From: Aquilaria yunnanensis
Taxonomy: Eukaryota; Streptophyta; Magnoliopsida; Malvales; Thymelaeaceae
Length of the DNA: 64,000 nucleotides
Reading direction: 5' to 3'
NCBI GenBank assembly: GCA_039654915.1
Contig: CM077597.1
Span: forward strand, 74,588,001-74,652,000
Shown here: positions 26,747-55,664 of the stretch, piece after piece
Position numbering within the stretch: position 1 is the stretch's first letter
Layout of the letters: the number at the start of each line of letters is the position of its first letter
Notes under the pieces: generated by a model
Told to the model about the DNA's origin: nothing
Seen by the model: the letters and a program-made list of their open reading frames with translations, nothing else
Databases searched by the model: none
Position numbers and translations under genes: made by a program

Positions 26747-27661
26747 GGTTCTAAGTGTGCGACCCAATAGGTTCTAAGTGTGCCAATGCGTAAAAATAAT
26801 CTAATTGGCTCTAAGTGTGCGACCCAATAGGTTCCTACAACATTGGCAATGATCATATTTATGATCATAAAAACAACGATCGGTGTCTAGCAACACATTA
26901 TTACTACCTAAGTAACAAGATAGTCAATGATTTGACTAAACCTTTAAGATCATTATTCGTATATGTCATTGTCCCTTTATTCAAGATATCAAGACTGAGC
27001 ACGAGACATGGAATGTGTCACTCTCGTACAACCCAATCTATGGTTTCTTGATTATCGAGTAGACTGACTAAAACTAATGATATTGATATCCCATATCAAC
27101 TTATCCAAGCATACTCATGCATTTCCTCAATCTTACTTAATCAAAAGGTCTAAAGATATCACTCTCATTACATAAGAGGGACAAATCCCATCTTAGAACC
27201 AATGACCACCTTCATGTTCTCTCTGTTATGAGCAACAAAGAAAAATATCAAAGTATATGACTCATATGTAGGGAACCTTGATGACCATAGGTCAAAGGAC
27301 TACATATACAGTGATCACTATGAGAATCACTTATGACACTCATATAATGATTCATGTAGCATTCTCATGGTGAGTCGGTCCAGTACACAAGTTCTCCAAC
27401 TTGTACCCATATGTAGACTACGTGTCTCATATTAGTTACCACACATGCTAGTCTTTATGTATTATTGCAACCCACTCTACAATAATACTAGATCAGGGAT
27501 GTTTAAGAATACTATTATTCTAGGATTATAATTATATTTGATTAGATCACAAAAAAAAAAATAACAAACACAATTACTGGAATAATGCCTCAACAAAATA
27601 TCATGGCTCAATGTGCAAAGTACAATATTCTCATGATTAGCTTTTGGGTACAATACTAACA
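26747..27661 (-). repeat. Copia LTR fragment, second module
   Basis: Starts on the minus strand with TGTTAGTATTGTACCC at 27,661, directly after the tract GTGGGAGAT, and runs to the tandem GGCTCTAAGTGTGCGACCCA words at 26,746-26,835. Matches 34,925-35,300 and 55,365-55,640. Confidence 0.75.
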
Positions 27662-28727: not shown

Positions 28728-29426
28728 TTGAGCACGAGACATGCAATGTTTTATTCTCGTATAGCCTAATCTAAGGTTTCTTGATTGCCGAGTAGACAAA
28801 CTAAAACTGATGATGTTGATATCCCATATCAATTCATTCGAGCAGAACAATGCATTGCCTCAATCTCATTCAATCAAGGGCCTGAAGATATCATTTTCGT
28901 TATATAGGAGGGACATATCTCACTTTTATCATACAAAAACCCTCTACATGATATATGACATACCTAATGACCACTTTCATGTTCACTCAGTTACGAGCAA
29001 CAAATGAAAATATCAAAGTATGTGACTTACATGTAGGGAACATTGATGACCTTAGGTCAAAGGACTATTTATACAATGATCACTATCAGAATCACTCATA
29101 ACACTCATATAACGATCCATGTAGCGTTCTCATGGTGGGTTGATCTAGTACACAAGTTCTCCAACTTGTACCCATATGTAGACTACATATCTCATATTAG
29201 TCTTCACACATGCTAGTCTTTATGTATTATTGCAACTCGCTCCACAATAATACTAGACCAGGAACGTTTAAGAATACTATTATTCTAGGGTTATAATTAT
29301 GCTTGATTATGTCACACAGAAACAAACAAAAAACATAATTACTAGAATAATGTCTTAACAAAATATCATGACTCAATGTGCAAAATATAATCTTTTCATG
29401 ATTAGCTGTTGGGTACAACACTAAGA
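28728..29426 (-). repeat. Copia LTR fragment, first module
   Basis: LTR start at about 29,426 (degenerate TCTTAG after the polypurine region), running leftwards until it breaks into RT sequence at about 28,727 near the shared word GAGCACGAGACATG. Confidence 0.75.
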
Positions 29427-34462: not shown

Positions 34463-35302
34463 TGTAGGGTTTCGGGAGCCAAACAAATGCAGCGGAAACT
34501 AACCGAAACTCTCTAGGATCCAAGTAAAACGAAGAAAGTTGAGTGTTCAAAATTTTTATACCTAGTTAGCTGAGATGTTCAAGCTCTCTACGATATCCAC
34601 ACGAACCACTCGGATCACCACACCTTGATCACATTTCAACAGGTGCATTCCTCTCACACCCGTAATGCTAAATTGCATCCTTTATGGAAAAACAAGAGGA
34701 TAGTGCGGCTGGAACCTTTCAAAACCCTTTTGATTTCATCCTTATGGAGGATATGGCACAAAATCCTTACTATATGATGTATATATAGTAAGCCATAACT
34801 CCCACGCCTAATGAGTTTCAAAACCTTAATCCAATTAGGTTTAAATCGGGCCTCATAATGGCTTAACCTTTGGGCCAATTATTAATCCAAAATTATCATG
34901 AGACCAAAACCAAACAATTTGGCCCATGGACTCAAATAATCCAATTGGCTCTAAATGTGCGACCTAATAGGCTCTTATCACATTTGACTAAACCTCTATG
35001 ATCATTATTCATATATGTCATTGTTCATTTGTCCAAGATATCAAGATCAAGCACGAGACATGGAATGTGTCACCCCCGTATAGGCCAATCTAAGGTTTTT
35101 TTATTACTAAATAGACTAACTAAAACTAATGACATTAACATCCCATATTAACTCATCCGAGTATGGCCATGCATTTTCTCAGTCTCACTCAATCAAGGGG
35201 CCTGAAGATATCACTTCCATTACATAGGAAGGACAAATCTCAATCTCATCTTGATCATACTTAGCATGATATGTGGCATACCCAATGGCCACCTTTATGT
35301 TC
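34463..35302 (-). repeat. Copia 5' LTR, inner part
   Basis: Ends at the primer-binding site and is interrupted at 35,302/35,303 by the 20 kb element. It resumes at 55,365 after a TGTTC duplication. Confidence 0.82.
35298..35302. repeat. Target-site duplication TGTTC (left) of the 20 kb element
   Basis: TGTTC is repeated at 55,365-55,369. Joining the flanks restores a copia LTR matching 27,222 and 28,976. Confidence 0.92.
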
Positions 35303-36344
35303 TGTGGCAACGTCGGGATTTCTGGAGTCGCCACCAATCAGTTTACTTAGGTCGATTGGTCACCTAAAATATAGTCTGCGAGAGTTCGGGGGTTCGGGAG
35401 TACGGTTACGTTGAAACAACTTTGTTAAAACGCCCAAAAATTGGCACCTTAGTTGATTTTAATTTTGTTTTACTTTGCTTTTAAAAAAATTTCAGTTAAT
35501 TTAGATATTTTAACTGAATTAGTCGAAAATGTGGATTTTTGGTAATTAAGTTGGAAAAAATTTGATACTTCCGAACCATGGACTCTGCCGAGTCATTTGG
35601 ACACGGAAGATTTTTTATTCCGAACCATGGACTCTGCCGAGTCATTTGGACACGGAATTTGGTGAAATTTTAAACAATTTTATCCATATTGTAAAAATAT
35701 GGATTTTTATCTTTTTATTTAATTTATTTATTTTAAAAAAATTGATATTTTCCAAACCGTAGATCCTGCCGGATCATCCGGATATGGAAATTGATTTACT
35801 TAATCGTAATTATTTAATTCCTGAAATTAATTTTTTAAAAGGTAATGATTTTTAATACTAACTAAAAATTTGTCTTTATATTTTTACTTTTTTTTTTTTC
35901 TTTCTTTTCTTTTTTCTTTTTTTTTTTATCTTTTATCTTATTTTTCTTATCTTCTTTTTTTTTTATTTCTTTTTTTTATTTCTTTTTTTATCTTTCTTTT
36001 ATTTTTATCTGATTTTTTTCTTAATTTATAAAAGAATTCAAAAGCAATTAATTTTTTTATTTAATAAGAAGTTAATTTAAAGGAATCAAAGAGTTTAAAA
36101 AATAAAATAAAATAAAAAAAAATCTTTGATCATGGTACGGGGCGTTGTTACTCAGCCAGACCCTCTTCACCAGGTGAAGCAGCTCAAAAGCGGGCACGAG
36201 ACAGTTTCCAGCCAATATACCATGAACTAAAAAAATTTTTGACTTAACAACATGGTTCAGATTTATTTTACATATATATTTTTTTATGGCTAATTTCTTT
36301 AAATGAAATGAGTTTAACCATAAAATAAAGAAAAATTAAATAAC

Positions 36345-37710
36345 AATAAATAAAGTTAGTAAAGTTAGTTGTTAGTATAACAAATATTAAATGGTTAGTG
36401 ACAACAATAATAATAAAAGTTAGCGGTCAGTACAGTTAATTGTTAGTATAGCAAAAATTAAATGGTTAGTGATAACAATAATAATGAAAGTTAGTGGTTA
36501 GCACAGTTAATTGTTAGTATAGCAAAAATTAAATGGTTAGTGATAACAATAATAATGAAAATTAGTGGTTAGCACAATTAATTGTTAGTATAACAAAAAT
36601 AAAAGTTAGTGATAACAATAATAATAAAAGTTAGTGGTTAGCACAATTAATTGTTAGTATAACAAAAATAAAAGTTAGTGATAACAATAATAATAAAAGT
36701 TAGTGGTTAGCACAATTAATTGTTAGTATAACAAAAATAAAAGTTAGTGATAACAATAATAATAAAAGTTAGTGGTTAGCACAATTAATTGTTAGTATAA
36801 CAAAAATAAAAGTTAGTGATAACAATAATACTAAAAGTTAGTGGTTAGCACAATTAATTGTTAGTATAACAAAAATTAAATGGTTAGTGATAACAATAAT
36901 AATGAAAATTAGTGGTTAGCACAATTAATTGTTAGTATAACAAAAATAAAAGTTAGTGATAACAATAATAATAAAAGTTAGTGGTTAGCACAATTAATTG
37001 TTAGTATAACAAAAATAAAAGTTAGTGATAACAATAATAATAAAAGTTAGTGGTTAGCACAATTAATTGTTAGTATAACAAAAATAAAAGTTAGTGATAA
37101 CAATAATAATAAAAGTTAGTGGTTAGCACAATTAATTGTTAGTATAACAAAAATAAAAGTTAGTGATAACAATAATACTAAAAGTTAGTGGTTAGCACAA
37201 TTAATTGTTAGTATAACAAAAATTAAATGTTAGTGATAACAATAATAATAAAAGTTAGTGGTTAGCACAATTAATTGTTAGTATAACAAAAATAAAAGTT
37301 AGTGATAACAATAATACTAAAAGTTAGTGGTTAGCACAATTAATTGTTAGTATAACAAAAATTAAATGTTAGTGATAACAATAATACTAAAAGTTAGTGG
37401 TTAGCACAATTAATTGTTAGTATAACAAAAATTAAATGTTAGTGATAACAATAATAATACAAGTTAGTGGTTAACACAATTAATTGTTAGTATAACAAAA
37501 ATTAAATGTTAGTGATAACAATAATACTAAAAGTTAGTGGTTAGCACAATTAATTGTTAGTATAACAAAAATTAAATGTTAGTGATAACAATAATAATAC
37601 AAGTTAGTGGTTAGCACAATTAATTATTAGTATAGCAGAAATTAAATGTTAGTGATAACAATAATAATAAAAGTTAGTGGTTAGTGAAGTTAGTTGTTAG
37701 TATAACAAAA
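36345..37710. repeat. 69-bp tandem array in the left LTR (about 19 copies)
   Basis: Units read AAGTTAGTGGTTAGCACAAT, TAATTGTTAGTATAACAAAA, ATAAAAGTTAGTGATAACAA, TAATAATAA with a few recurring variants (AAATAAAAG or AATTAAATG; AATAATAAT or AATAATACT). The same order of variants appears in the right LTR at 52,165-53,500, as expected if both LTRs came from one RNA template. Confidence 0.9.
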
Positions 37711-38584
37711 ATAAATGGTTAGTGACTTGAATAGAATAATAATAACAATAATAATAATAAACATACAAAGATTATTGCTAACTCTGCAGAAATAATAAAA
37801 AAAAGGTTAGTGACTTGTATAAATGAAAATAAATAAAAAAAATAAAAAAATAAAAAAATAAAAAAAAAAATTGGAGGATTAAAGAAGGATTATACCGTGA
37901 ATTTGAATCGACTTTTAATCGAGCTGAGGATTCGCGAACTGATTTTTTTTCTTGATTCGATGTCGAACGATGGCGAACGATTTATTTGCGACTGATGGTG
38001 GTTTTGTTGAATGTCGCGGCGATTATTATTTTTTATTAGAAGTTTAGGATATAATTTGTTCTTCCAAACCGTGGATCCTGCCGGATCATTCGGATATGGA
38101 ATTTAATATCCAAGCCATGGATTCTAACCGAATCATTTGGACATGGATATGATCCGTCTTAGGATCTCGTTATTTAATTTTAATTAATATCCAAGCCATG
38201 GATTCTAACCGAATCATTTGGACATGGATATATGTTACATCTTAGGACGGATTTCTAATAAATTGATACACATTTAATGTATTACAAGAATTACAATTAA
38301 ACTATTCTAAAATCCAATAAATATACATGAATATACATATCAAATCAAAGTCGCATGTTGTTCTCTTAATGATCAAAATTAATGTAAGATAAAATCAACT
38401 AATAATAGAAGAAACAAAGAAAAATAAAAACAAACAAAAAGTTTGCTGTCAGTGATGAATCTGTAAGGAAAATAAAATTAATAACTTAAATGGATAAAAT
38501 AAAAAGAATTAAGGGCTAAGTAATAATTTTACCCAAAAGTTTTAAAATTTTGACTTGGTCAAATCGTTTTTTTTTCGTTTTTAT

Positions 38585-38785
38585 TTCTTGTTTCAGCAAC
38601 AGGGAGGCGTGAGCAGGAGCGGCAGGGCGGTGGAAGAACGACGCGGTGGCTGGGGGGACGACGCGGTGGCTGGGTGCGCTGAGGAAGAGCGACGGACAGG
38701 GGCGGAGCGCGGGCAGCCACCGGCGCGAGCGAGGCGAGACGCGACGGTGCGGGAGCAGGCTGGAGAAGAAGCGAAGTCTCTGTGC
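38585..38785. other. GC-rich island inside the left LTR
   Basis: About 200 bases rich in GCG and CGG (for example GACGACGCGGTGGCTGGG twice) in an otherwise AT-rich LTR, next to an AG-rich block at 38,790-39,180 (CT-rich on the sense strand). The order on the sense strand is CT-rich then GC-rich, as in plant 5' leaders; it may include the transcription start region. Confidence 0.45.
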
Positions 38786-38789
38786 GAGA

Positions 38790-39180
38790 GAAGAGAAAAA
38801 AAAAAAAAAAAAAAAATCTGTTGCGAGAGGGAGAGAGAGAAATGAGAGAAAACTGAGATGGAGAAGGAGAGAAGAGAGCCCGTCGGGAAGAGAGAGAGAG
38901 AAGGAGAAACAGAGAGGGGAGCAAAGGAGAGAGAGAGAGTTTTGCGAGAAGAGAGAGAGAGAAGGAGAAAACAGAGAGGGAGAAGGAGAGCAGATAGAGA
39001 AGGAGAGAAGCGGGGAGAGAGAGGGAAGAGAACAGAGAGAGAAGGAGAAAAAAAAAATTAGAGAAAGCGTGAGAGAGGGCTCAGTTCTGTGAGAGGCCAG
39101 AGAGGGAGAGGGCCGAGAGAGTGAAGAAAAGAGAGAGAATCTGAGAGGGAAAAGGAGAGAAGATAAGATTAGAGATAAAG
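38790..39180. repeat. GAGA/AG-rich low-complexity block in the left LTR
   Basis: Iterated GAGAGAGAAGGAGAAA and related words. Open frames on both strands here are low-complexity artefacts. The corresponding block in the right LTR is 54,600-54,990. Confidence 0.8.
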
Positions 39181-39557
39181 GGGGGGAGCCTCTGTCGGCC
39201 ACCCTCCCCATTTTTTATTATTATTTTTGTTTTTTTCTTCTTTTTCTTTTTAATTAATTAATTAATTAATAATTTTTAATTTTAATTAATTTAGATTTAA
39301 TTTATTATTATTATTTTTTATTATTTTTTTTTCTTTTTCTTCCCATTTTTTTTTTTTTTAACATACAAACTAAAAAGAACGCCCCTAAAATAATATTGCC
39401 ATTATTACTATCATTATTTTTTTAATTAAGTAATCAATTAATTAAGTAATTCAATAATAATTTTTTTTTAATAAGTTTAAATTTTTAAAATAATTAATTA
39501 ATTTTTTTATTTAATTAATTTTTTTATTTTTAAGCCGGACGAAATTGGGTGTCAACA

Positions 39558-39580
39558 GCTGCCCCCCTTTGCATGCTTCA
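39558..39580 (-). promoter_or_regulatory. Polypurine tract of the 20 kb element
   Basis: On the minus strand GCAAAGGGGGGCAGC abuts the LTR start TGTTGACACC. This gives the element's orientation. Confidence 0.82.
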
Positions 39581-39660: not shown

Positions 39661-41572
39661 TCTGAGGTTTAAGAAAAGGTCCTTAGAACCTCTAACGATA
39701 GGAAAAGTTCTATCGTTGTAAGATGGACTGAATGATTGATTGTTTGTTTGAGGTTTAAGGAAAGGTCCTTAGAGCCTCTAACGATAGGAAAGGTTCTATC
39801 GTTGTAAGATGGACTGAATGATTGATTGTTTGTTTGAGGTTAAGGAAAGGTCCTTAGAACCTCTAACGATAGGAAAGGTTCTATCGTTGTAAGATGGACT
39901 GAATGATTGATTGTTTGTTTGAGGTTAAGGAAAGGTCCTTAGAACCTCTAACGATAGGAAAGGTTCTATCGTTGTAAGATGGACTGAATGATTGATTGTT
40001 TGTTTGAGGTTTAAGGAAAGGTCCTTGGAACCTCTAACGATAGGAAAGGTTCTATCGTTGTAAGATGGACTGAATGATTGATTGTTTGTTTGAAGTTTAA
40101 GGAAAGGTCCTTAGAACCTCTAACGATAGGAAAGGTTCTATCGTTGTAAGATGGACTGAATGATTGATTGTTTGTTTGAGGTTAAGGAAAGGTCCTTAGA
40201 ACCTCTAACGATAGGAAAGGTTCTATCGTTGTAAGATGGACTGAATGATTGATTGTTTGTTTGAAGTTTAAGGAAAGGTCCTTAGAACCTCTAACGATAG
40301 GAAAGGTTCTATCGTTGTAAGATGGACTGAATGATTGATTGTTTGTTTGAGGTTAAGGAAAGGTCCTTAGAACCTCTAACGATAGGAAAGGTTCTATCGT
40401 TGTAAGATGGACTGAATGATTGATTGTTTGTTTGAGGTTTAAGGAAAGGTCCTTAGAACCTCTAACGATAGGAAAGGTTCTATCGTTGTAAGATGGACTG
40501 AATGATTGATTGTTTGTTTGAGGTTTAAGGAAAGGTCCTTAGAACCTCTAACGATAGGAAAGGTCCTTAGAACCTCTAACGATAGGAAAGGTTCTATCGT
40601 TGTAAGATGGACTGAATGATTGATTGTTTGTTTGAGGTTTAAGGAAAGGTCCTTAGAACCTCTAACGATAGGAAAGGTTCTATCGTTGTAAGATGGACTG
40701 AATGATTGATTGTTTGTTTGAGGTTTAAGGAAAGGTCCTTAGAACCTCTAACGATAGGAAAGGTTCTATCGTTGTAAGATGGACTGAATGATTGATTGTT
40801 TGTTTGAGGTTAAGGAAAGGTCCTTAGAACCTCTAACGATAGGAAAGGTTCTATCGTTGTAAGATGGACTGAATGATTGATTGTTTGTTTGAGGTTTAAG
40901 GAAAGGTCCTTAGAACCTCTAACGATAGGAAAGGTTCTATCGTTGTAAGATGGACTGAATGATTGATTGTTTGTTTGAGGTTAAGGAAAGGTCCTTAGAA
41001 CCTCTAACGATAGGAAAGGTTCTATCGTTGTAAGATGGACTGAATGATTGATTGTTTGTTTGAGGTTTAAGGAAAGGTCCTTGGAACCTCTAACGATAGG
41101 AAAGGTTCTATCGTTGTAAGATGGACTGAATGATTGATTGTTTGTTTGAGGTTAAGGAAAGGTCCTTAGAACCTCTAACGATAGGAAAGGTTCTATCGTT
41201 GTAAGATGGACTGAATGATTGATTGTTTGTTTGAGGTTAAGGAAAGGTCCTTAGAACCTCTAACGATAGGAAAGGTTCTATCGTTGTAAGATGGACTGAA
41301 TGATTGATTGTTTGTTTGAGGTTTAAGGAAAGGTCCTTGGAACCTCTAACGATAGGAAAGGTTCTATCGTTGTAAGATGGACTGAATGATTGATTGTTTG
41401 TTTGAGGTTTAAGGAAAGGTCCTTAGAACCTCTAACGATAGGAAAGGTTCTATCGTTGTAAGATGGACTGAATGATTGATTGTTTGTTTGAGGTTTAAGG
41501 AAAGGTCCTTGGAACCTCTAACGATAGGAAAGGTTCTATCGTTGTAAGATGGACTGAATGATTGATTGTTTT
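39661..41572 (-). repeat. 86-bp tandem array (22 copies) with an internal hairpin in each unit
   Basis: The unit (85-86 bases) contains GGTCCTTAGAACCTCTAACG, ATAGGAAAGGTTCTATCGTT, GTAAGATGGACTGAATGATT, GATTGTTTGTTTGAGG. AACGATAG and CTATCGTT form a perfect 8-base stem around GAAAGGTT. Copies are nearly identical apart from GAGGTTAAGG/GAGGTTTAAGG and AGAACC/GGAACC variants. One unit near 40,555-40,590 has a partial internal duplication. It lies just inside the 3' end, where Tat-lineage elements are known to carry variable minisatellites. Confidence 0.95.
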
Positions 41573-41875
41573 TTGAGGCAAAGGTTCCATCCTTAAAACC
41601 CCGATGATGAAAATTGATTGTTTTCGAGGCAAAGGTTCCATCCTTAAAACCTCGATGGTGAAAATTGATTGTTTTCGAGGCAAAGGTTCCATCCTTAAAA
41701 CCCCGATGATGAAAATTGATTTTTTTCGAGGCAAAGGTTCCATCCTTAAAACCTCGATGGTGAAAATTGATTATTTTCGAGGCAAAGGTTCTATCCTTAA
41801 AACCCCGATGAAAATTGATTGTTTTCGAGGCAAAGGTTCCATCCTTAAAACCCCGATGATGAAAATTGATTTTGA
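41573..41875 (-). repeat. 51-bp tandem array (about six copies)
   Basis: The unit reads GAGGCAAAGGTTCCATCCTT, AAAACCCCGATGATGAAAAT, TGATTGTTTTC. Because 51 is divisible by three, both strands stay open and give repetitive peptides; I regard these as artefacts. It follows directly on the 86-bp array and shares a TTCC/TGATTG vocabulary with it. Confidence 0.9.
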
Positions 41876-42411: not shown

Positions 42412-43041
42412 TTATGGGAGTGAACTGGTCGGAAAAGACTGTCGTGTCCAGTCTATCTGAATCATTGCTGGATCTGGTTCAGGAACAAAAGCTTGTATTT
42501 TATCTAGCAATTCTTCAGCAGTTGTTGCGGATATTATGATTCGCCGTGCCACTCTTGATATGAAATTCTTCTGCATAGCATAATCCATAAAAGCTATCAG
42601 ACCTGTAAAGAAATTGTTAACATTTAAAAGCCCAATGGTTTTTTTATGCAAATTAAGTTGGGCCATGGAAGCAATTTGAAAGACTTCTCCCAACGTGCCA
42701 AAACCACCTGGTAGAGCGATAAAAGCATCAGCATTTAAAAGCATTTGTAACACACGCTCTTGCAAATTTTTAACCACTAATTCTTCTCCAATCGTGCCCC
42801 CAGAAACAAATTTCAAAGGTCCAGGGATGATGCCCAAAACTTGACTTCCTCCTAAAGATGCTGCTGATGCTACACCTCCCATTAATCCGACACTACCTCC
42901 TCCATAAACTAAATGTATTTTTCGCTCAGCTAATACTCTACCCAAATGGTTGGCTGCCTTTAAATACTCTTCATCTTTTCCAGGAAAAGCCCCAGAAAAT
43001 ACACAAATACTTCGGGATTTACGAGTTGGGGTTTTCTCCAT
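42412..43041 (-). CDS. LOG: LOG-family cytokinin-activating enzyme (LONELY GUY-like), intronless
   Basis: From the ATG at 43,041 (MEKTPTRK; 209 codons) the frame covers a whole LOG domain: ICVFSGAFPGKDEEYLKAA at 12-30, LVYGGGSVGLMGGVASAA at 44-61, VLGIIPG at 68-74, ADAFIALPGGFGTLGEVFQI at 104-123 (PGGxGTxxE with Glu119), MAQLNLHKKTIGLLNVNNF at 126-144. LOG enzymes hydrolyse cytokinin riboside 5'-monophosphates to free bases in the cytosol. Catalytic-type Arg96 and Glu119 are present, but the usual MHxRK block reads LQERV and the stretch before it is shortened. Plant LOG genes normally have several introns; this one has none, suggesting capture from mRNA. A farther in-frame ATG at 43,128 lies upstream of the TATA box, so I prefer 43,041. 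No stop or frameshift. Confidence 0.9.
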   Translation of the reverse strand: MEKTPTRKSRSICVFSGAFPGKDEEYLKAANHLGRVLAERKIHLVYGGGSVGLMGGVASAASLGGSQVLGIIPGPLKFVSGGTIGEELVVKNLQERVLQMLLNADAFIALPGGFGTLGEVFQIASMAQLNLHKKTIGLLNVNNFFTGLIAFMDYAMQKNFISRVARRIIISATTAEELLDKIQAFVPEPDPAMIQIDWTRQSFPTSSLP

Positions 43042-43072
43042 TCCTATCCTTATCCTTGTGAGAAAAGAGGAT

Positions 43073-43103
43073 ATATTTATAGAGATGAAGAGATAAGGCA
43101 ATA
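43073..43103 (-). promoter_or_regulatory. Core promoter module of the LOG-like gene
   Basis: On the minus strand GCCTTATCTCTTCATCTCTA followed by TAAATAT. The same arrangement (TTATCC, then TTTCRTC, then CTATAAAT) stands before three of the zinc-finger genes. The TATA lies 32-41 bases before the ATG, so the leader would be very short. Confidence 0.65.
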
Positions 43104-43124
43104 ATTTTATTTTCAAGAGTGGAT

Positions 43125-43595
43125 ACATTATTGCCAGCTATACACAGTAGTCACGAGTATGACTCTGGTCAGGTATGGGTACACTATCGTTAAAAGAGGA
43201 GGAAAATTTTTAAAATAGCTGCTAGCATGTACAGTAGTCGCTACTGTAGCTTACGTCAGGAGTAGGTATGTGATTGTTGGAAGGGAAGGAAAATTTCAAA
43301 AGTGGCAGCTATATACAGTAGTCCGTGTCAGGAGTGGGTACATTATTGCCAAAGGGGAGGAAAATTTCAAAAGCGACAGCTAGCACGTACAGTAATCGTA
43401 ACTATGGCTCATGTCAGGAGTGGATACATTATCGCTGAAAGGGGAGGAAAATTTCAAAAGCGACAGCTAGTACGTACAGTAATCGTGACTTTGGTTCACG
43501 TCAGGAGTGGATACATTATTACCAAAGGGGGAGGAAAATTTCAAAAGCGACAGCTAGCACGTACAGTAATCGTGACTTTGATCCTCGTCTTCCAC
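43125..43595 (-). repeat. 86-bp imperfect tandem repeat upstream of the LOG-like gene (5-6 copies)
   Basis: The unit includes GGAGGAAAATTTCAAAAGCG, ACAGCTAGCACGTACAGTAA, TCGTGACTTTGGTTCACGTC, AGGAGTGGATACATTATTAC. Related single copies occur downstream of the zinc-finger genes at about 44,275-44,350, 45,090-45,160 and 45,855-45,945. CACGTC/GACGTG words, the cores of bZIP sites, recur. It could act as an upstream enhancer of LOG. Confidence 0.8.
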
Positions 43596-43628
43596 TGGCT
43601 TTGCGTCCAGTAATGGCTTCAATGCTTT

Positions 43629-44177
43629 CTATGAATCGGTGATTTGCATCTCATCTAGCTTTCTCACAAACTGGCAAACAGGGTCGTTTAGGGTCAGATT
43701 CCCAAGACTGTAACGATCTCGTTCTTTTTGGAAAATTATCCATAATCCAACAACCTCAAATTGCACTATTCCACAAGAATGCGCTTCAAGAACCTCTCGA
43801 ATATCTTCTAGAGATTCCTTACGCAAGCCATTCTTAATGAATCTTATTCTATCATTACGATTTCTGGTGATCACTCCTGGAGCACGACATTTATTGCCGC
43901 AAATCCACCATCCACAATTATGACAAACGCCTAGCCTCTTTGCTCTTCTTTTTTTGGCATAAGCGCTTTTACCAAAGCCGGGCATACGGGGAAAGAACGC
44001 TTCGGGAATTTCACCAGCTGAACGAACCTTAGCTTCAATTAGCCACCGCACATTATCAGGAATGCCTTTGTGCATAAATACTCTGAATCGTTCACATCTA
44101 GCTTGATAAATCTTTTTAAGAACATTTATTGGGAAGGAAGGAAAATACTTTCGTAGGGCGGAAAGAGAAGACTCCAT
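43629..44177 (-). CDS. C4 zinc-finger protein A, carlavirus/allexivirus cysteine-rich-protein-like
   Basis: 182 codons from the ATG at 44,177 (MESSLSALRKYF; an ATG five codons upstream is not shared by the paralogues). It has a leading region with LRKYFPS and LIEAKVRSAGE, a basic patch GKSAYAKKRRAKRLG at 69-83, then a C4 finger CHNCGWWICGNKC at 85-97 (C-x2-C-x4-C-x3-C), FIKNGLRKESLEDI, and a conserved tail NDPVCQFVRKLD. The G-K-S-x-Y-A-basic-R-R-A ... L-G-x-C-H-x-C arrangement resembles the nucleic-acid-binding cysteine-rich proteins of carla- and allexiviruses (Carla_C4 family). No homologue among retrotransposon gag or pol is apparent. It is the most diverged finger of the four (GWW for GRW). 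It has its own upstream TATA module. DNA or RNA binding is likely; the function is inferred. Confidence 0.82.
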   Translation of the reverse strand: MESSLSALRKYFPSFPINVLKKIYQARCERFRVFMHKGIPDNVRWLIEAKVRSAGEIPEAFFPRMPGFGKSAYAKKRRAKRLGVCHNCGWWICGNKCRAPGVITRNRNDRIRFIKNGLRKESLEDIREVLEAHSCGIVQFEVVGLWIIFQKERDRYSLGNLTLNDPVCQFVRKLDEMQITDS

Positions 44178-44234
44178 TGATGAAGGAGGCAAAGAAAGAA
44201 ATTAGTGATTGTAGGAAACGAACATAACTAACAC

Positions 44235-44270
44235 ATATTTATAGTGACGAAAGGGATAATGCGTTTATTA
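44235..44270 (-). promoter_or_regulatory. Core promoter module of zinc-finger gene A
   Basis: On the minus strand ACGCATTATCCCTTTCGTCA followed by CTATAAATATGTG, about 60 bases before the ATG at 44,177. Closely related to the LOG module. Confidence 0.65.
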
Positions 44271-44393
44271 CACTTACAGAATCAAGTACATTATTGTCAA
44301 AAGAAAAGACAAATGACAGCTTATATGTACAGCAATCATGACTGTGGCTCTCATCTTCCACTGATTTATGTCTAGTAACGGCTTCAATGCCTT

Positions 44394-44942
44394 CTATAAG
44401 TCGGGGATTTGCTTCCCATCCAGTTTTCTCACAAACTGGCAAACAGGGTCATTAAAAGTTAGATTTCCAAGACTGTAACGATCCTGTTCTTTACGGAAAG
44501 TCCACCATAAATCCATAATTTCCCATTGCACTATTTCACAAGAATGTGTTTCAAAAGTTAATAGGATATCATCCAAAGATTCCTTACGCAGGCCATTCTT
44601 GATGAATTTTCTTTTATCTTCATGATTTCTGGAGATGTATCCTAAAAAGCGACATTTAGTATTACAATTCCATCGTCCACATTTATGACAGACACCAAGC
44701 CTCTTTGCTCTTCGCTTTTTGGCATAAGCGCTTTTACCAAAGCCGGGCATACGGGGAAAGAACGCTTCTGGAACTTCACCAGCTGAACGAACCTTAGCTT
44801 CAATTAGCCACCGCACATTGTCAGGAATGCCTTTGTGCATAAAGACTCTAATCCTTTCACATCTAGCTTGGTAAATCATTTTAAGAACATTTATTGGGAT
44901 GGAAGGAAAGTATTTTCGCATGGCGGAAAGAGTAGAATCCAT
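44394..44942 (-). CDS. C4 zinc-finger protein B, cysteine-rich-protein-like
   Basis: 182 codons, MDSTLSAMRKYF to the stop, with no interruptions. Basic patch at 70-81, finger CHKCGRWNCNTKC at 85-97, FIKNGLRKESLDDI near 113-126, tail NDPVCQFVRKLDGKQIPDL. By eye it shares about four residues in five with protein C; all four finger cysteines and Cys28 are kept. The unit repeats at intervals of 750-800 bases together with its promoter and leader, so whole gene cassettes were duplicated. Gene start and end are fixed by alignment with the other three copies. Possible role: nucleic-acid binding, gene regulation or silencing suppression by analogy with viral proteins; not shown. Confidence 0.85.
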   Translation of the reverse strand: MDSTLSAMRKYFPSIPINVLKMIYQARCERIRVFMHKGIPDNVRWLIEAKVRSAGEVPEAFFPRMPGFGKSAYAKKRRAKRLGVCHKCGRWNCNTKCRFLGYISRNHEDKRKFIKNGLRKESLDDILLTFETHSCEIVQWEIMDLWWTFRKEQDRYSLGNLTFNDPVCQFVRKLDGKQIPDL

Positions 44943-45046
44943 TGATAAAAGAAGAATTTGAGAGAAGAGATGAAGAAATCAGTTATTGTAGGAAACTGAG
45001 AGTCAGAGAGTATTGCATCCGCTACTTAACCGGAAAGAAGAACACG

Positions 45047-45080
45047 CATTTATAGCGATGAAAGGATAACGTGTTAATTA
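45047..45080 (-). promoter_or_regulatory. Core promoter module of zinc-finger gene B
   Basis: On the minus strand ACACGTTATCCTTTCATCGC followed by TATAAATGCGTG, about 105 bases before the ATG at 44,942. It is followed by a leader with TTTCCTACAATAACTGATTT, shared with the other copies. Confidence 0.68.
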
Positions 45081-45197
45081 CGCTTACAGGAACAAGTATA
45101 TTAAAAGAAAAGACAAATGACAGCTTATATGTACAGGAATCATGACCGTGGCTCTCATCTTCCCCTGATTTATGTCCAGTAATGGCTTCAATGCCAT

Positions 45198-45746
45198 CTA
45201 TAAGTCGGGGATTTGCTTCCCATCCAGTTTTCTTACAAACTGACAAACAGGATCGTTTAAAGTCACATTCCCAAGACTGTAACGGTTTCGTTCTTTATGG
45301 TAAGTCCTCCATAAACTGATAATTTCACCTTGCACTTTTCCACAAGAATGCGTTTCAAGAGTCTCTCGGATATCTTCCAGAGATTCCTTACGCAGGCCAT
45401 TCTTAATGAATTTTCTTTTATCTTCACGATTTATGGAGATGTATCCTAAAGAGCGACATTTAGTAATACAATTCCATCGCCCACATTTATAACACACGCC
45501 TAGTCTCTTTGCTCTTCGCCTTTTGGCATAACGGCTTTTACCTAAACCGGGCATGCGGGGCATAAATGCATCTGGAACTTCACCCGCCAGACGGACCTTA
45601 GCTTCAATTATCCACTGCACATTATCGGGAATGCCTTTGCGTGTAAAAACTCTGATTCTTTCACATCTAGCTAGGTAGATCTTTTTAAGGACTTTTATTG
45701 GAAGGGAAGGAAAGTATTTTCGCAGTGCAGAAAGAGTAGAATGCAT
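45198..45746 (-). CDS. C4 zinc-finger protein C, cysteine-rich-protein-like
   Basis: 182 codons (MHSTLSALRKYF) without interruption. The basic patch is the strongest of the set (GKSRYAKRRRAKRLG); finger CYKCGRWNCITKC; FIKNGLRKESLEDI; the same tail as B. Differences from B are scattered over the protein, while finger cysteines, basic residues, the KNGL block and the tail are kept, which suggests selection on the protein after duplication. It lies between B and D on the same strand with its own TATA module. Confidence 0.85.
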   Translation of the reverse strand: MHSTLSALRKYFPSLPIKVLKKIYLARCERIRVFTRKGIPDNVQWIIEAKVRLAGEVPDAFMPRMPGLGKSRYAKRRRAKRLGVCYKCGRWNCITKCRSLGYISINREDKRKFIKNGLRKESLEDIRETLETHSCGKVQGEIISLWRTYHKERNRYSLGNVTLNDPVCQFVRKLDGKQIPDL

Positions 45747-45825
45747 TGATGAGAGAAGAATTTGAGAGATGATGGAAAGGAATTAGTTATTGAAGGAAAC
45801 TTAGATAACCGACTGGAAGAACATG

Positions 45826-45860
45826 CATTTATAGCGATGAAATGGATAACGTGTCGATTA
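45826..45860 (-). promoter_or_regulatory. Core promoter module of zinc-finger gene C
   Basis: On the minus strand ACACGTTATCCATTTCATCG followed by CTATAAATGCATG, about 80 bases before the ATG at 45,746. Confidence 0.68.
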
Positions 45861-45992
45861 CACTTACGGGAGCAAATACATTATTAAAAGAAAAATGAAA
45901 AATTTTAAATATGATAAATTGTATGTACAGTGATTGTGACTGTGGCTCACATCTTCCACTGGTTTTACGTCCAGTAACGGGATTAATGGCTT

Positions 45993-46541
45993 CTATGAGT
46001 CGAGGATTTGCTTCCCATCCAGTTTTCTTACAAGCTGACAAATAGGGTCGTTTAACGTCAGATTCCCGGGACTGTATCGTTCTCGTTCTTCATGAAAAAT
46101 GCTCCATAAATCGAGAAGTTCACGTTGCACAGATCCACAAGAATGCGTCTCAAGAGTCAATTGGAGATCATCCAATGAATCCTTACTCAGGCCATTCTTA
46201 ATGAATCGTATTTTATCTTCTCGATTATCAGAGATCATCCCTAAAGAACGACATTTAGTATTACAGGTCCAGCGTCCGCATTTATGACAGACGCCTAGTC
46301 TCCTCGCTCTTCGCTTTTTGGCATAAGAGCTTTTGCCTACACCAGGCATGTGAGACACAAATGCCTCTGGGATTTCACCTGCCAGACGAACCTTAGCTTC
46401 AATTAACCACCGCACATCTTCAGGGATTCCTTTATGCATCAGAGCTCTTAATCGTTCACAGCGAACTTGGTAGATCTTTTTGAGGATGTTCATTGGGAGA
46501 GAAGGAAAATATTTTCGCAAGGCAGAAAAAGTAGGATCCAT
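45993..46541 (-). CDS. C4 zinc-finger protein D, cysteine-rich-protein-like
   Basis: 182 codons (MDPTFSALRKYF), uninterrupted. Basic patch GKSSYAKKRRARRLG, finger CHKCGRWTCNTKC, FIKNGLSKDSLDDL, tail NDPICQLVRKLDGKQILDS. First gene of the array in the sense direction. Its leader shares TTCCGGTTAAG and AATAACTGAT with gene B, but the CTATAAAT module is replaced by an AT-rich GATAAAAAATATC segment at about 46,678-46,695, and two TGACGTC sites lie farther upstream. It may be the founder copy, with later copies derived by tandem duplication; that order is an inference. Confidence 0.84.
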   Translation of the reverse strand: MDPTFSALRKYFPSLPMNILKKIYQVRCERLRALMHKGIPEDVRWLIEAKVRLAGEIPEAFVSHMPGVGKSSYAKKRRARRLGVCHKCGRWTCNTKCRSLGMISDNREDKIRFIKNGLSKDSLDDLQLTLETHSCGSVQRELLDLWSIFHEERERYSPGNLTLNDPICQLVRKLDGKQILDS

Positions 46542-50101: not shown

Positions 50102-51071
50102 TAGTCTTGTTTGGATCTGAGTTGGATATCGGTATTGAGGTCCAATTTTAGTGTTTTTAAAGTAAGATTTATTTTATTAGACTTTACATGCATTTGACTG
50201 ATGTGATGGATGCATGCAATATAAAATGAGATTACGTTCTTATCAGATTTTATATACACGTGATTGATGTAATGGAATGCATGTAATGAGATTATTTTTA
50301 TCAGACTTTATATGTTCGTGATTGATGTAATGCATGCATGCGATGAGCGGGTTTGATTTTCAACTATTGTGGAACTTTAAGACTTCTAGTTTTCATTAGA
50401 AAGATTAAAAAGTTAGCATAATTTGATGCGTGGTTTTGATGCATGAAGAATAATTGCACAAGAACGGAAGTATAACAAAAGAAAAATAAGGTTATTAACA
50501 AGTTAAATAGTAATTAACAACTCATGAAGTATTATGGATAAACAAGTTAAAACCATACGAAGAAAAGTGTAGAGTAACAACACAGCATAACAAGGATATG
50601 CTTATGGCGTTGGTAAAATGGTAGAAATTCTATGGTCAGTTCTATGGTTAAGTGGGGAGTTCTATATGCATAAGGTGGTTTATCAAAAAGGCAAGGGATA
50701 GTTCCCGAATCCCGTCACTAAATCATAGTGACGGCTCGATTCCTTACCCTCTAGGGTTAATGTAAGGAATGGATTAATTCGAGTCGTAGCTTTTCGTGGG
50801 CCCATGCAGAGACTAACCGTCTCAGAAGGCAATACACTACTTTGCTACTTTGAAACCGGTGAAGGCTTGGAGACCGTGGCCTCACAAGGACAGCAACACC
50901 AATTCCGCTTAGAAAGAATCGTGTTTGATTTAAGGAAGCTCGGGTATAGAGCTTCATTTTGTGAATGCATTATGCATGATTACTTAAGTAAATATAATAT
51001 ATAAATCCACATAAAAAGAAGCAAAGCAAAACAAAACAAATCAAGTTTTAGGCTCGACTCACTAACCGGAG
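50102..51071 (-). other. Leader of the 20 kb element
   Basis: Untranslated sequence between primer site and gag relic. It includes three imperfect 65-bp repeats (50,165-50,345, with GTGATTGATGTAATG and ATGCATG words) and a perfect hairpin at 50,712-50,734. Confidence 0.55.
50712..50734. repeat. Perfect 9-base hairpin in the element leader
   Basis: CCGTCACTA and TAGTGACGG flank the 5-base loop AATCA. It lies about 340 bases downstream of the primer-binding site on the sense strand. Confidence 0.7.
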
Positions 51072-51089
51072 TCCCCAGTGGAGTCGCCA
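51072..51089 (-). promoter_or_regulatory. Primer-binding site of the 20 kb element
   Basis: TGGCGACTCCACTGGGGA on the minus strand, three bases after the right LTR. This form is typical of Tat/Ogre-type elements, for which a tRNA-Arg primer has been described. Confidence 0.75.
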
Positions 51090-51092
51090 AGC

Positions 51093-54000
51093 TGTGGCAA
51101 CGTCGGGATTTCTGGAGTCGCCACCAATCAGTTTACTTAGGTCGATTGGTCACCTAAAATATAGTCTGCGAGAGTTCGGGGGTTCGGGAGTACGGTTACG
51201 TTGAAACAACTTTGTTAAAACGCCCAAAAATTGGCACCTTAGTTGATTTTAATTTTGTTTTACTTTGCTTTTAAAAAAATTTCAGTTAATTTAGATATTT
51301 TAACTGAATTAGTCGAAAATGTGGATTTTTGGTAATTAAGTTGGATAAAATTTGATACTTCCGAACCATGGACTCTGCCGAGTCATTTGGACACGGAAGA
51401 TTTTTTATTCCGAACCATGGACTCTGCCGAGTCATTTGGACACGGAATTTGGTGAAATTTTAAACAATTTTATCCATATTGTAAAAATATGGATTTTTAT
51501 CTTTTTATTTAATTTATTTATTTTAAAAAAATTGATATTTTCCAAACCGTAGATCCTGCCGGATCATCCGGATATGGAAATTGATTTACTTAATCGTAAT
51601 TATTTAATTCCTGAAATTAATTTTTTAAAAGGTAATGATTTTTAATACTAACTAAAAATTTGTCTTTATATTTTTACTTTTTTTTTTTTTCTTTCTTTTC
51701 TTTTTTTTTTTTTTTTTATCTTTTATCTTATTTTTCTTATCTTCTTTTTTTTTATTTCTTTTTTTTATTTCTTTTTTTATCTTTCTTTTATTTCTTTTTT
51801 TATCTTTCTTTTATTTTTATCTGATTTTTTTCTTAATTTATAAAAGAATTCAAAAGCAATTAATTTTTTTATTTAATAAGAAGTTAATTTAAAGGAATCA
51901 AAGAGTTTAAAAAAATAAAATAAAATAAAATAAAATCTTTGATCATGGTACGGGGCGTTGTTACTCAGCCAGACCCTCTTCACCAGGTGAAGCAGCTCAA
52001 AAGCGGGCACGAGACAGTTTCCAGCCAATATACCATGAACTAAAAAAATTTTTGACTTAACAACATGGTTCAGATTTATTTTACATATATATTTTTTTAT
52101 GGCTAATTTCTTTAAATGAAATGAGTTTAACCATAAAATAAAGAAAAATTAAATAACAATAAATAAAGTTAGTAAAGTTAGTTGTTAGTATAACAAATAT
52201 TAAATGGTTAGTGACAACAATAATAATAAAAGTTAGCGGTCAGTACAGTTAATTGTTAGTATAGCAAAAATTAAATGGTTAGTGATAACAATAATAATGA
52301 AAGTTAGTGGTTAGCACAGTTAATTGTTAGTATAGCAAAAATTAAATGGTTAGTGATAACAATAATAATGAAAATTAGTGGTTAGCACAATTAATTGTTA
52401 GTATAACAAAAATAAAAGTTAGTGATAACAATAATAATAAAAGTTAGTGGTTAGCACAATTAATTGTTAGTATAACAAAAATAAAAGTTAGTGATAACAA
52501 TAATAATAAAAGTTAGTGGTTAGCACAATTAATTGTTAGTATAACAAAAATAAAAGTTAGTGATAACAATAATAATAAAAGTTAGTGGTTAGCACAATTA
52601 ATTGTTAGTATAACAAAAATAAAAGTTAGTGATAACAATAATACTAAAAGTTAGTGGTTAGCACAATTAATTGTTAGTATAACAAAAATTAAATGGTTAG
52701 TGATAACAATAATAATGAAAATTAGTGGTTAGCACAATTAATTGTTAGTATAACAAAAATAAAAGTTAGTGATAACAATAATAATAAAAGTTAGTGGTTA
52801 GCACAATTAATTGTTAGTATAACAAAAATAAAAGTTAGTGATAACAATAATAATAAAAGTTAGTGGTTAGCACAATTAATTGTTAGTATAACAAAAATAA
52901 AAGTTAGTGATAACAATAATAATAAAAGTTAGTGGTTAGCACAATTAATTGTTAGTATAACAAAAATAAAAGTTAGTGATAACAATAATACTAAAAGTTA
53001 GTGGTTAGCACAATTAATTGTTAGTATAACAAAAATTAAATGTTAGTGATAACAATAATAATAAAAGTTAGTGGTTAGCACAATTAATTGTTAGTATAAC
53101 AAAAATAAAAGTTAGTGATAACAATAATACTAAAAGTTAGTGGTTAGCACAATTAATTGTTAGTATAACAAAAATTAAATGTTAGTGATAACAATAATAC
53201 TAAAAGTTAGTGGTTAGCACAATTAATTGTTAGTATAACAAAAATTAAATGTTAGTGATAACAATAATAATACAAGTTAGTGGTTAACACAATTAATTGT
53301 TAGTATAACAAAAATTAAATGTTAGTGATAACAATAATACTAAAAGTTAGTGGTTAGCACAATTAATTGTTAGTATAACAAAAATTAAATGTTAGTGATA
53401 ACAATAATAATACAAGTTAGTGGTTAGCACAATTAATTGTTAGTATAGCAGAAATTAAATGTTAGTGATAACAATAATAATAAAAGTTAGTGGTTAGTGA
53501 AGTTAGTTGTTAGTATAACAAAAATAAATGGTTAGTGACTTGAATAGAATAATAATAACAATAATAATAATAAACATACAAAGATTATTGCTAACTCTGC
53601 AGAAATAATAAAAAAAAGGTTAGTGACTTGTATAAATGAAAATAAATAAAAAAAATAAAAAAATAAAAAAATAAAAAAAAAAATTGGAGGATTAAAGAAG
53701 GATTATACCGTGAATTTGAATCGACTTTTAATCGAGCTGAGGATTCGCGAACTGATTTTTTTTCTTGATTCGATGTCGAACGATGGCGAACGATTTATTT
53801 GCGACTGATGGTGGTTTTGTTGAATGTCGCGGCGATTATTATTTTTTATTAGAAGTTTAGGATATAATTTGTTCTTCCAAACCGTGGATCCTGCCGGATC
53901 ATTCGGATATGGAATTTAATATCCAAGCCATGGATTCTAACCGAATCATTTGGACATGGATATGATCCGTCTTAGGATCTCGTTATTTAATTTTAATTAA

Positions 54001-55364
54001 TATCCAAGCCATGGATTCTAACCGAATCATTTGGACATGGATATATGTTACATCTTAGGACGGATTTCTAATAAATTGATACACATTTAATGTATTACAA
54101 GAATTACAATTAAACTATTCTAAAATCCAATAAATATACATGAATATACATATCAAATCAAAGTCGCATGTTGTTCTCTTAATGATCAAAATTAATGTAA
54201 GATAAAATCAACTAATAATAGAAGAAACAAAGAAAAATAAAAACAAACAAAAAGTTTGCTGTCAGTGATGAATCTGTAAGGAAAATAAAATTAATAACTT
54301 AAATGGATAAAATAAAAAGAATTAAGGGCTAAGTAATAAATTTACCCAAAAGTTTTAAAATTTTGACTTGGTCAAATCGTTTTTTTTTCGTTTCTATTTC
54401 TTGTTTCAGCAACAGGGAGGCGTGAGCAGGAGCGGCAGGGCGGTGGAAGAACGACGCGGTGGCTGGGGGGACGACGCGGTGGCTGGGTGCGCTGAGGAAG
54501 AGCGACGGACAGGGGCGGAGCGCGGGCAGCCACCGGCGCGAGCGAGGCGAGACGCGACGGTGCGGGAGCAGGCTGGAGAAGAAGCGAAGTCTCTGTGCGA
54601 GAGAAGAGAAAAAAAAAAAAAAAATCTGTTGCGAGAGGGAGAGAGAGAAATGAGAGAAAACTGAGATGGAGAAGGAGAGAAGAGAGCCCGTCGGGAAGAG
54701 AGAGAGAGAAGGAGAAACAGAGAGGGGAGCAAAGGAGAGAGAGAGAGTTTTGCGAGAAGAGAGAGAGAGAAGGAGAAAACAGAGAGGGAGAAGGAGAGCA
54801 GATAGAGAAGGAGAGAAGCGGGGAGAGAGAGGGAAGAGAACAGAGAGAGAAGGAGAAAAAAAAAATTAGAGAAAGCGTGAGAGAGGGCTCAGTTCTGTGA
54901 GAGGCCAGAGAGGGAGAGGGCCGAGAGAGTGAAGAAAAGAGAGAGAATCTGAGAGGGAAAAGGAGAGAAGATAAGATTAGAGATAAAGGGGGGGAGCCTC
55001 TGTCGGCCACCCTCCCCATTTTTTATTATTATTTTTGTTTTTTTCTTCTTTTTCTTTTTAATTAATTAATTAATTAATAATTTTTAATTTTAATTAATTT
55101 AGATTTAATTTATTATTATTATTTTTTATTATTTTTTTTTCTTTTTCTTCCCATTTTTTTTTTTTTTAACATACAAACTAAAAAGAACGCCCCTAAAATA
55201 ATATTGCCATTATTACTATCATTATTTTTTTAATTAAGTAATCAATTAATTAAGTAATTCAATAATAATTTTTTTTAATAAGTTTAAATTTTTAAAATAA
55301 TTAATTAATTTTTTTATTTAATTAATTTTTTTATTTTTAAGCCGGACGAAATTGGGTGTCAACA
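51093..55364 (-). repeat. Right (5') LTR, 4.27 kb
   Basis: Near-identical to 35,303-39,557. Differences seen by eye are the A/T at 51,345 versus 35,555, a roughly 24-base duplication in the T-rich tract near 51,785-51,810, homopolymer length changes and about three other single-base changes. As the sense 5' LTR it should hold the element promoter. Confidence 0.93.
52165..53505. repeat. 69-bp tandem array in the right LTR
   Basis: Same unit, copy number and order of variants as 36,345-37,710. Confidence 0.9.
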
Positions 55365-55664
55365 TGTTCACTCAGTTATGAGCAACAAAAGGAAGTATCA
55401 AAGTATGTGACTTATATGTAGAGAACCTTGATGACCTTAGCTCAAAGGACTACATATACCATGATCACTATGAAAATCACTTATGACACTCATATAACGA
55501 TTCATGTAGCGTTCTCATGGTGGGTCAGTTTAGTACACAAGTTCTCCAACTTGTACCCATATGTAGACTACATATATCATATTAGTCTCCACACATGCTA
55601 GTCGTTATGTATTATTGCAACCAATTTTACAGTAATACTAGACCAGGGACGTTTAAGAATACTA
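55365..55664 (-). repeat. Copia 5' LTR, middle part
   Basis: Continues from 35,302 after the TGTTC duplication and matches 27,222-27,510 and 28,976-29,260. Confidence 0.82.

Follow-up and report, generated by a model that had tools for sequence, protein, structure and literature searches.

An LTR retrotransposon with five sense-strand cassette genes

We analyzed a 64,000-nucleotide stretch of the Aquilaria yunnanensis genome (contig CM077597.1, positions 74,588,001 to 74,652,000; hereafter the window), whose minus strand carries a complete insertion of a long terminal repeat (LTR) retrotransposon, with near-identical LTRs ending in TG..CA, a 5-bp target-site duplication and a polypurine tract (Table 1). 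The 11.5-kb interior contains no long pol frame and encodes a cassette of five intronless open reading frames (ORFs) on the element's own sense strand: four paralogous genes for homologs of virus-type nucleic-acid-binding proteins (NABPs), here called C4a to C4d, followed by one gene for a LOG-type protein. The original prediction, made from the letters of this DNA, had described five uninterrupted genes of these two kinds inside a recently inserted element that had lost nearly all of gag-pol, and our analysis agrees on each point. All five ORFs were found in the sense orientation, the two copies of the target-site duplication TGTTC match perfectly, and the pol frames of a pol-bearing relative, described below, match a single 34-aa remnant in the window. 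The LTRs are nearly identical, which marks the insertion as young; ten of the 15 mismatches between them are confined to a simple-sequence stretch at 35900-35973, and the remaining five lie outside it.

Table 1. Features of the retrotransposon insertion, in positions of the window
Feature	Position	Strand	Remark
Target-site duplication TGTTC, copy at 5' LTR	55365..55369	.	read from sequence
5' LTR	51093..55364	-	starts TGTTGACACC, ends CCACA on the minus strand
Putative primer-binding site TGGCGACTCCACTGGGGAC	51071..51089	-	3 bases between site and 5' LTR; sequence reading
G-patch-frame remnant, 34 aa	49949..50050	-	88% identical to frame of pol-bearing relative
C4a, 182 aa, virus-type NABP homolog	45993..46541	-	first gene of the cassette
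C4b, 182 aa	45198..45746	-	
C4c, 182 aa	44394..44942	-	
C4d, 182 aa	43629..44177	-	ORF list has TTG start at 44192
LOG-type protein, 209 aa	42412..43041	-	longer reading of 238 aa from 43128
Tandem repeat, ~86 bp	39663..41578	.	interval between cassette and 3' LTR
Polypurine tract adjoining 3' LTR	39558..39570	-	sequence reading
3' LTR	35303..39557	-	15 mismatches and 4 gap events over 4,250 bases aligned to 5' LTR
Target-site duplication TGTTC, copy at 3' LTR	35298..35302	.	read from sequence; identical to the other copy

All four C4 ORFs score above the Pfam cut-offs of both Carla_C4 (PF01623) and Viral_NABP (PF05515), at 23-32 bits. These families comprise the nucleic-acid-binding proteins of carlaviruses and their relatives, and we take the p12 protein of Chrysanthemum virus B to be a member. 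In an alignment of 61 C4 sequences, made up of the four window ORFs and 57 homologs, 57 match Carla_C4 and 55 match Viral_NABP at E<=0.01 (some of them below cut-off), and two other Pfam families obtain one match each. The matched part spans a basic arm, a C-x2-C-x4-C-x3-C ribbon and the segment that follows it. For C4d, the start is better placed at 44177, which gives the protein the same length as its paralogs. The four window genes and two homologs form a single clade (support 0.98), indicating that the tandem expansion is younger than the C4 family itself.

The fifth ORF matches PF03641 (E 3.5e-29) and scores 147 bits for TIGR00730, well beyond the cut-off of 96.35. Its closest relatives in the PDB are the Arabidopsis proteins 2a33 (At2g37210) and 1ydh (At5g11950). 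Both residues that were checked in the PGGxGTxxE motif and at the catalytic-type arginine position (the Glu and the Arg, which we take to be the catalytic residues of the LOG motifs) are present in the window protein. The start at 43041 is the better choice, as it is preceded at a distance of about 40 nt by a CTATAAAT box, which falls within the longer reading.

Copies, pol-bearing relative and codon constraint

Searches of the 842-Mb assembly that holds the window returned 3,664 first-look candidates for LOG and 8,559 candidates for C4a. The best 150 of each list were scored, and in both cases all 150 were full-length, stop-free and listed as 100% identical; being restricted to the best 150, both lists display recent copies alone. 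The total number of cassette copies is probably in the thousands. Of the 31 C4a places listed on contig C5, 13 are followed on the same strand by a listed LOG at a distance of 3.50-3.67 kb; at one place, a LOG within 8 kb lies on the opposite strand.

A second sample of elements was drawn by LTR-start pairing and not by gene content. Pairing consecutive same-strand starts among the 100 LTR starts listed on contig C1 gives 34 pairs with a spacing below 30 kb. In 22 of them the spacing is 12.8-16.0 kb, and 20 of these 22 were picked by eye and their 3' parts read. All 20 elements carry the LOG and C4 cassette in a single order on the element's sense strand, with two C4 genes before LOG in three elements and three in the other 17, as compared with four in the window copy. 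Of the 20 LOG genes, 15 are intact; for C4, the number of intact genes is 39 or more of 57, a lower bound set by the strict rule that was applied. A further pair at 2460804-2476609, outside the 20, encloses a LOG place from the genome search. An assembly artefact or a single capture is ruled out by the presence of the cassette in every sampled element; the mobile family carries the five ORFs as resident genes.

One LTR pair on the same contig (C1:4559602-4579629, 20 kb between LTR starts) delimits a pol-bearing relative. Its pol frame, stop-free in the pieces read, encodes a reverse transcriptase, an RNase H, an RVT_3 domain (a second, RNase H-like domain) and an integrase, and is preceded by a 324-aa G-patch frame. 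About 1.4 kb beyond the end of the pol frame, and likewise in the sense orientation, lie four C4 ORFs with 91, 96, 96 and 95% identity to window C4a-d, followed by a LOG that is 97.6% identical to that of the window. As this relative combines pol with the same cassette, the window element is best read as a pol-deleted derivative. A dual RNase H after the reverse transcriptase is a trait of the Tat family, and long LTRs are found in Tat/Ogre elements (PMC9289625). The 20-kb relative has RT_RNaseH and RVT_3 in a single frame, the window copy being pol-less; as sequence features, the dual RNase H and the long LTRs fit the Tat/Ogre lineage of Ty3 elements.

The coding capacity of the cassette bears the imprint of selection. 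Among the four window C4 paralogs, the pairwise ratio of nonsynonymous to synonymous substitution rates (dN/dS) is 0.20-0.42 (Fisher p 8e-5 to 4e-15), so these are not chance ORFs. When the C4 region of the window is compared with that of the 20-kb relative, spacers differ at 113 of 1,334 positions (8.5%), third codon positions at 72 of 732, and first and second codon positions at only 44 of 1,463 (3.0%; p 3e-10 against the spacers), and this lower divergence of positions 1+2 points to purifying selection. The ratio of nonsynonymous to synonymous differences per site (pN/pS), pooled over copy pairs that are not independent of one another, was 0.50 for LOG and 0.35 for C4 at dS <0.03, 0.28 and 0.24 at dS 0.03-0.06, and 0.12-0.28 and 0.17-0.34 at dS >0.06. 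A pN/pS that falls with dS is expected if constraint acts on the genes as long as their lineage transposes and is relaxed once a copy has inserted. In a tree of C4 copies, sequences group largely by their position in the cassette, and the positions thus represent stable paralogs. We consequently rejected neutral cargo on the combined codon tests (paralog dN/dS, pN/pS among copies, and positions 1+2 against spacers). The original prediction had named many copies, a constant gene order and dN/dS below 1 as support, and a single copy or an assembly artefact as grounds for refutation; the 150 intact scored copies of each gene, the 20 sampled elements and the codon comparisons, with pN/pS among copies at or below 0.50, bear it out on these points.

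A CTATAAA box lies within 150 nt upstream of the middle C4 in 16 of 16 cases, of the last C4 in 17 of 17 and of LOG in 20 of 20, with fewer than one expected per group from shuffles; ORFs whose match did not reach the first residue were excluded from these counts. In the window, short repeated motifs at 43144-43580, between C4d and LOG, look by eye like the spacers upstream of C4, as if they were duplicated promoter modules.

Homologs of the cassette proteins are spread over several plant families. For C4 there are 177 at E<=0.01, and the 120 listed include proteins of Rhamnella, Populus, Xanthoceras, Orobanche, Gossypium and Citrus; for LOG, scoring covered the 7,998 candidates with the most shared words, and the 120 listed (P0121-P0240) include entries from Reevesia, Paulownia, Populus, Diplodiscus and Xanthoceras. 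Database annotation places C4 and LOG/SLOG domains within single gene models in Rhamnella (P0085) and Citrus (P0113 and P0117). Our Pfam scan found the LOG/SLOG part in all three (below cut-off in P0113), and a C4 domain at E<=0.01 in P0113 only, also below cut-off; the C4 parts of P0085 and P0117 are recognized by their identity with the window protein, 61% and 58%, respectively. The longest contigs listed for the C4 proteins P0009 and P0008 and the LOG proteins P0140 and P0174 are of equal length within each pair (8,723 bases for P0009/P0140 and 4,511 for P0008/P0174), which suggests physical linkage, short of proof. The gene models of Rhamnella P0072 and Orobanche minor P0110 fuse C4 to other pieces, which give no Pfam match at E<=0.01 and which resemble Athila-type protease and integrase. 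We did not adopt the view that these C4 sequences belong to the same pol-bearing element, given that the joined pieces look Athila-like and the models may be false joins; on the strength of these two models, C4 may occur in more than one retrotransposon lineage.

Two further observations concern the window element itself. Each of its LTRs contains a tandem array of about 70 bp, at 36355-37725 and 52168-53538. The flank of the 5' LTR (55363-55664) is about 89% identical to 27213-27514 and 28978-29279, and because this flank is repeated elsewhere in the window, the element seems to have inserted in an older repeat; a fragment near those two stretches looks copia-like.

A resident accessory cassette and competing explanations

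We consider it likely that the window element belongs to a Tat/Ogre-type Ty3 family of high copy number, in which it is a non-autonomous member that has lost pol, and that the products of its resident accessory cassette favor the copy or the cell that expresses them. In this family, the cassette occupies the 3' region and consists of two, three or four C4 genes in tandem and, after them, a single LOG-type gene; each is in the sense orientation. Most of the genes would be driven by their own promoters, as the boxes before the later C4 genes and LOG suggest, and pol-bearing relatives would provide pol in trans. Nucleic-acid binding is the probable activity of the C4 proteins, which, by analogy with p12, probably reduce silencing of the element or activate its transcription. 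The LOG-type protein probably alters cell state, through either the release of active cytokinin or a regulatory role as a diverged LOG, and this effect would be placed in tissues whose new insertions are inherited. That the products likely act for the expressing copy or cell is suggested most strongly by the retention of the cassette in apparently pol-less copies.

Several observations, in this and the following paragraph, weigh against this interpretation. The 20 sampled elements are apparently too short for gag-pol, a judgment that comes from LTR spacing with the 3' parts read, and the pol-bearing elements read amount to one, in pieces, out of the 12 C1 pairs outside 12.8-16.0 kb; one of its four C4 ORFs has an internal stop. 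The LTR start TGTTGACACC was found 7,777 times in the genome as against 1,394 for the reversed control pattern, but we dropped this excess as a copy count, since only two of eight loci beginning with it (L001-L008) resemble the window element in blastn. These two, L001 and L002, are the ends of one pair and match partially, at no more than about 83% identity over up to 320 bases; the other six give no blastn match to it, so this LTR start must be shared by other genomic sequences. None of 19 first C4 genes has a CTATAAA box in the 150 nt before it, and kinship of the duplicated spacers partly accounts for its conservation before the other genes. The near-identity of the scored copies, which are hence recent, and of the window LTRs is in line with a cassette that passively hitchhikes, its ORFs intact merely through the youth of the copies. 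We regard this as highly improbable, because first and second codon positions of C4 differ about one-third as often as the spacers, the paralogs show dN/dS of 0.20-0.42, and homologs are retained in several plant families.

The relationship of C4 to virus NABPs is open to the objection that a basic arm and a four-cysteine ribbon could have arisen independently. The Pfam scores are indeed modest, some homologs (P0032, for example) fall below cut-off, and the window ORFs give no Pfam match beyond approximately residue 127. The predicted structure of C4a is poor (predicted local distance difference test score 66, predicted template modeling score 0.31), and fold searches with this model returned nothing significant, a fragment of the Garlic virus A NABP ranking third at E 1.2; a profile search of PDB sequences found none at E<=1. 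Among IMG/VR contigs no relative was confirmed, with 3 pattern stretches from the single C4 protein, 57 from the alignment and 0 by tblastn. However, all four window ORFs exceed the cut-offs of both virus models, and the aligned sequences match these two models at E<=0.01 in 57 and 55 of 61 cases as against one match for each of the two other families, leaving an independent origin unlikely in our view. A different challenge concerns function: C4 might serve element replication only, as an RNA chaperone, a nucleocapsid-like protein or a transcription factor, with LOG acting as a nuclear regulator rather than a cytokinin enzyme. The LOG-type ORF reaches 94.7 bits for the NCBIfam equivalog NF058542, a prokaryote-annotation model with a cut-off of 300, and we therefore use the name LOG-type rather than LOG. 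Moreover, it has V where host LOGs (P0124, 2a33 and 1ydh, taken as such) have Lys in MHxRK, after the catalytic-type Arg, and 111 of 113 LOG-type homologs of 195-235 aa carry M, L or I in this column. The absence of this Lys and the missed equivalog cut-off make LOG enzyme activity uncertain. LxLxL, a repression motif, occurs within the final 10 residues in 95 of 108 LOG-type homologs of 205-235 aa and is preceded by a basic stretch in 90 of these 95, against a shuffling expectation of 0.8. Together with the replaced Lys, these tails lead us to keep a regulatory LOG among the options. Yet the catalytic-type Arg is conserved in 109 and the Glu in 111 of the 113 homologs, and the LxLxL tail is absent from all 21 LOG copies of this genome that were inspected and from the LOG of the pol-bearing relative; a replication-only C4 paired with a regulatory LOG is accordingly conceivable but doubtful.

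Beyond the accessory cassette that we favor, we tentatively propose a further step, itself rather speculative: C4 and LOG may constitute a two-part host-manipulation module, in which C4 blunts silencing and the LOG-type protein reprograms hormone state or transcription, and which pol-shedding copies keep because it pays the expressing copy or cell. Under the same proposal, there would have been a transfer of C4 between LTR retrotransposons and flexuous plant RNA viruses, in which the retrotransposon was possibly the donor. If the inferred functions are true, a single plant retrotransposon would code for a hormone-linked enzyme as well as for relatives of a virus silencing suppressor, and it would offer an example, open to direct test, of a transposon that influences the state of its host cell. 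The element also connects LTR retrotransposons with a gene family known from flexuous plant RNA viruses, which bears on the origin of virus silencing suppressors, and the retention of the cassette after pol loss sharpens the question of which genes of a retrotransposon work on behalf of the copy that encodes them.

Relation to known retroelements and viruses

The original prediction knew of no described LTR retrotransposon with this combination, a claim that stands in part: a LOG-type domain in LTR elements is already published, whereas C4 genes and the C4-LOG pairing were unreported in our searches. A YgdH (LOG-type) domain has been reported in LTR retrotransposons of Citrus and, with a laxer filter, of Populus (PMC9289625, citing Steinbauerova et al. 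2011), and this paper was the sole relevant find of our searches on LOG, YgdH or lysine decarboxylase in LTR elements. For virus-type C4 genes in LTR retrotransposons, or for their pairing with LOG, our literature search found no report, subscription papers being mostly outside its reach. Like the window family, the Citrus and Populus elements are LTR elements of Ty3 type in which a LOG-type domain has been added (PMC9289625). The section of that paper on YgdH elements is silent on virus-type C4 genes, tandem copies, gene order and strand, pol-deleted derivatives and selection. The Citrus YgdH elements and the window cassette are probably related, as the Citrus proteins P0113 and P0117 carry both C4-like and SLOG parts.

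Ogre and the giant Phalaenopsis Gypsy elements with an AlkB-type ORF (PMC9289625) share with the present family long LTRs and a dual RNase H, seen here in the pol-bearing relative, and their extra ORF, like the cassette, possibly counters host control. Unlike them, the window family has C4 and LOG genes, several per element, and its sampled copies are apparently too short for gag-pol. Retand, Grande and RIRE2 (PMC11963269; PMC7264820) likewise harbor coding genes in the interval from pol to the 3' LTR, in many cases accompanied by tandem repeats; however, their additional ORFs (TRP28 and others) are antisense, whereas the window cassette is in the sense orientation. A term search of the available text of these two papers found no mention of a LOG domain, a zinc finger or a carlavirus.

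On the virus side, p12 of the carlavirus Chrysanthemum virus B has been described as activating transcription in the nucleus and suppressing silencing in the cytoplasm (PMC7588395). The window C4 proteins share with carlavirus NABPs such as p12 a match to Pfam Carla_C4/Viral_NABP and a basic arm with a four-cysteine ribbon; they differ in being 182 aa long, in having both N- and C-terminal parts conserved, and in being encoded inside an integrated retroelement. Plant-RNA-virus-like sequences in plant chromosomes have a precedent in endogenous non-retroviral RNA virus sequences (PMC3136472), which include one betaflexivirus replicase-like chromosomal sequence in cucumber. No NABP gene was found among those described in the accessible part of that paper, whereas the C4 genes of the window are a selected part of a mobile element.

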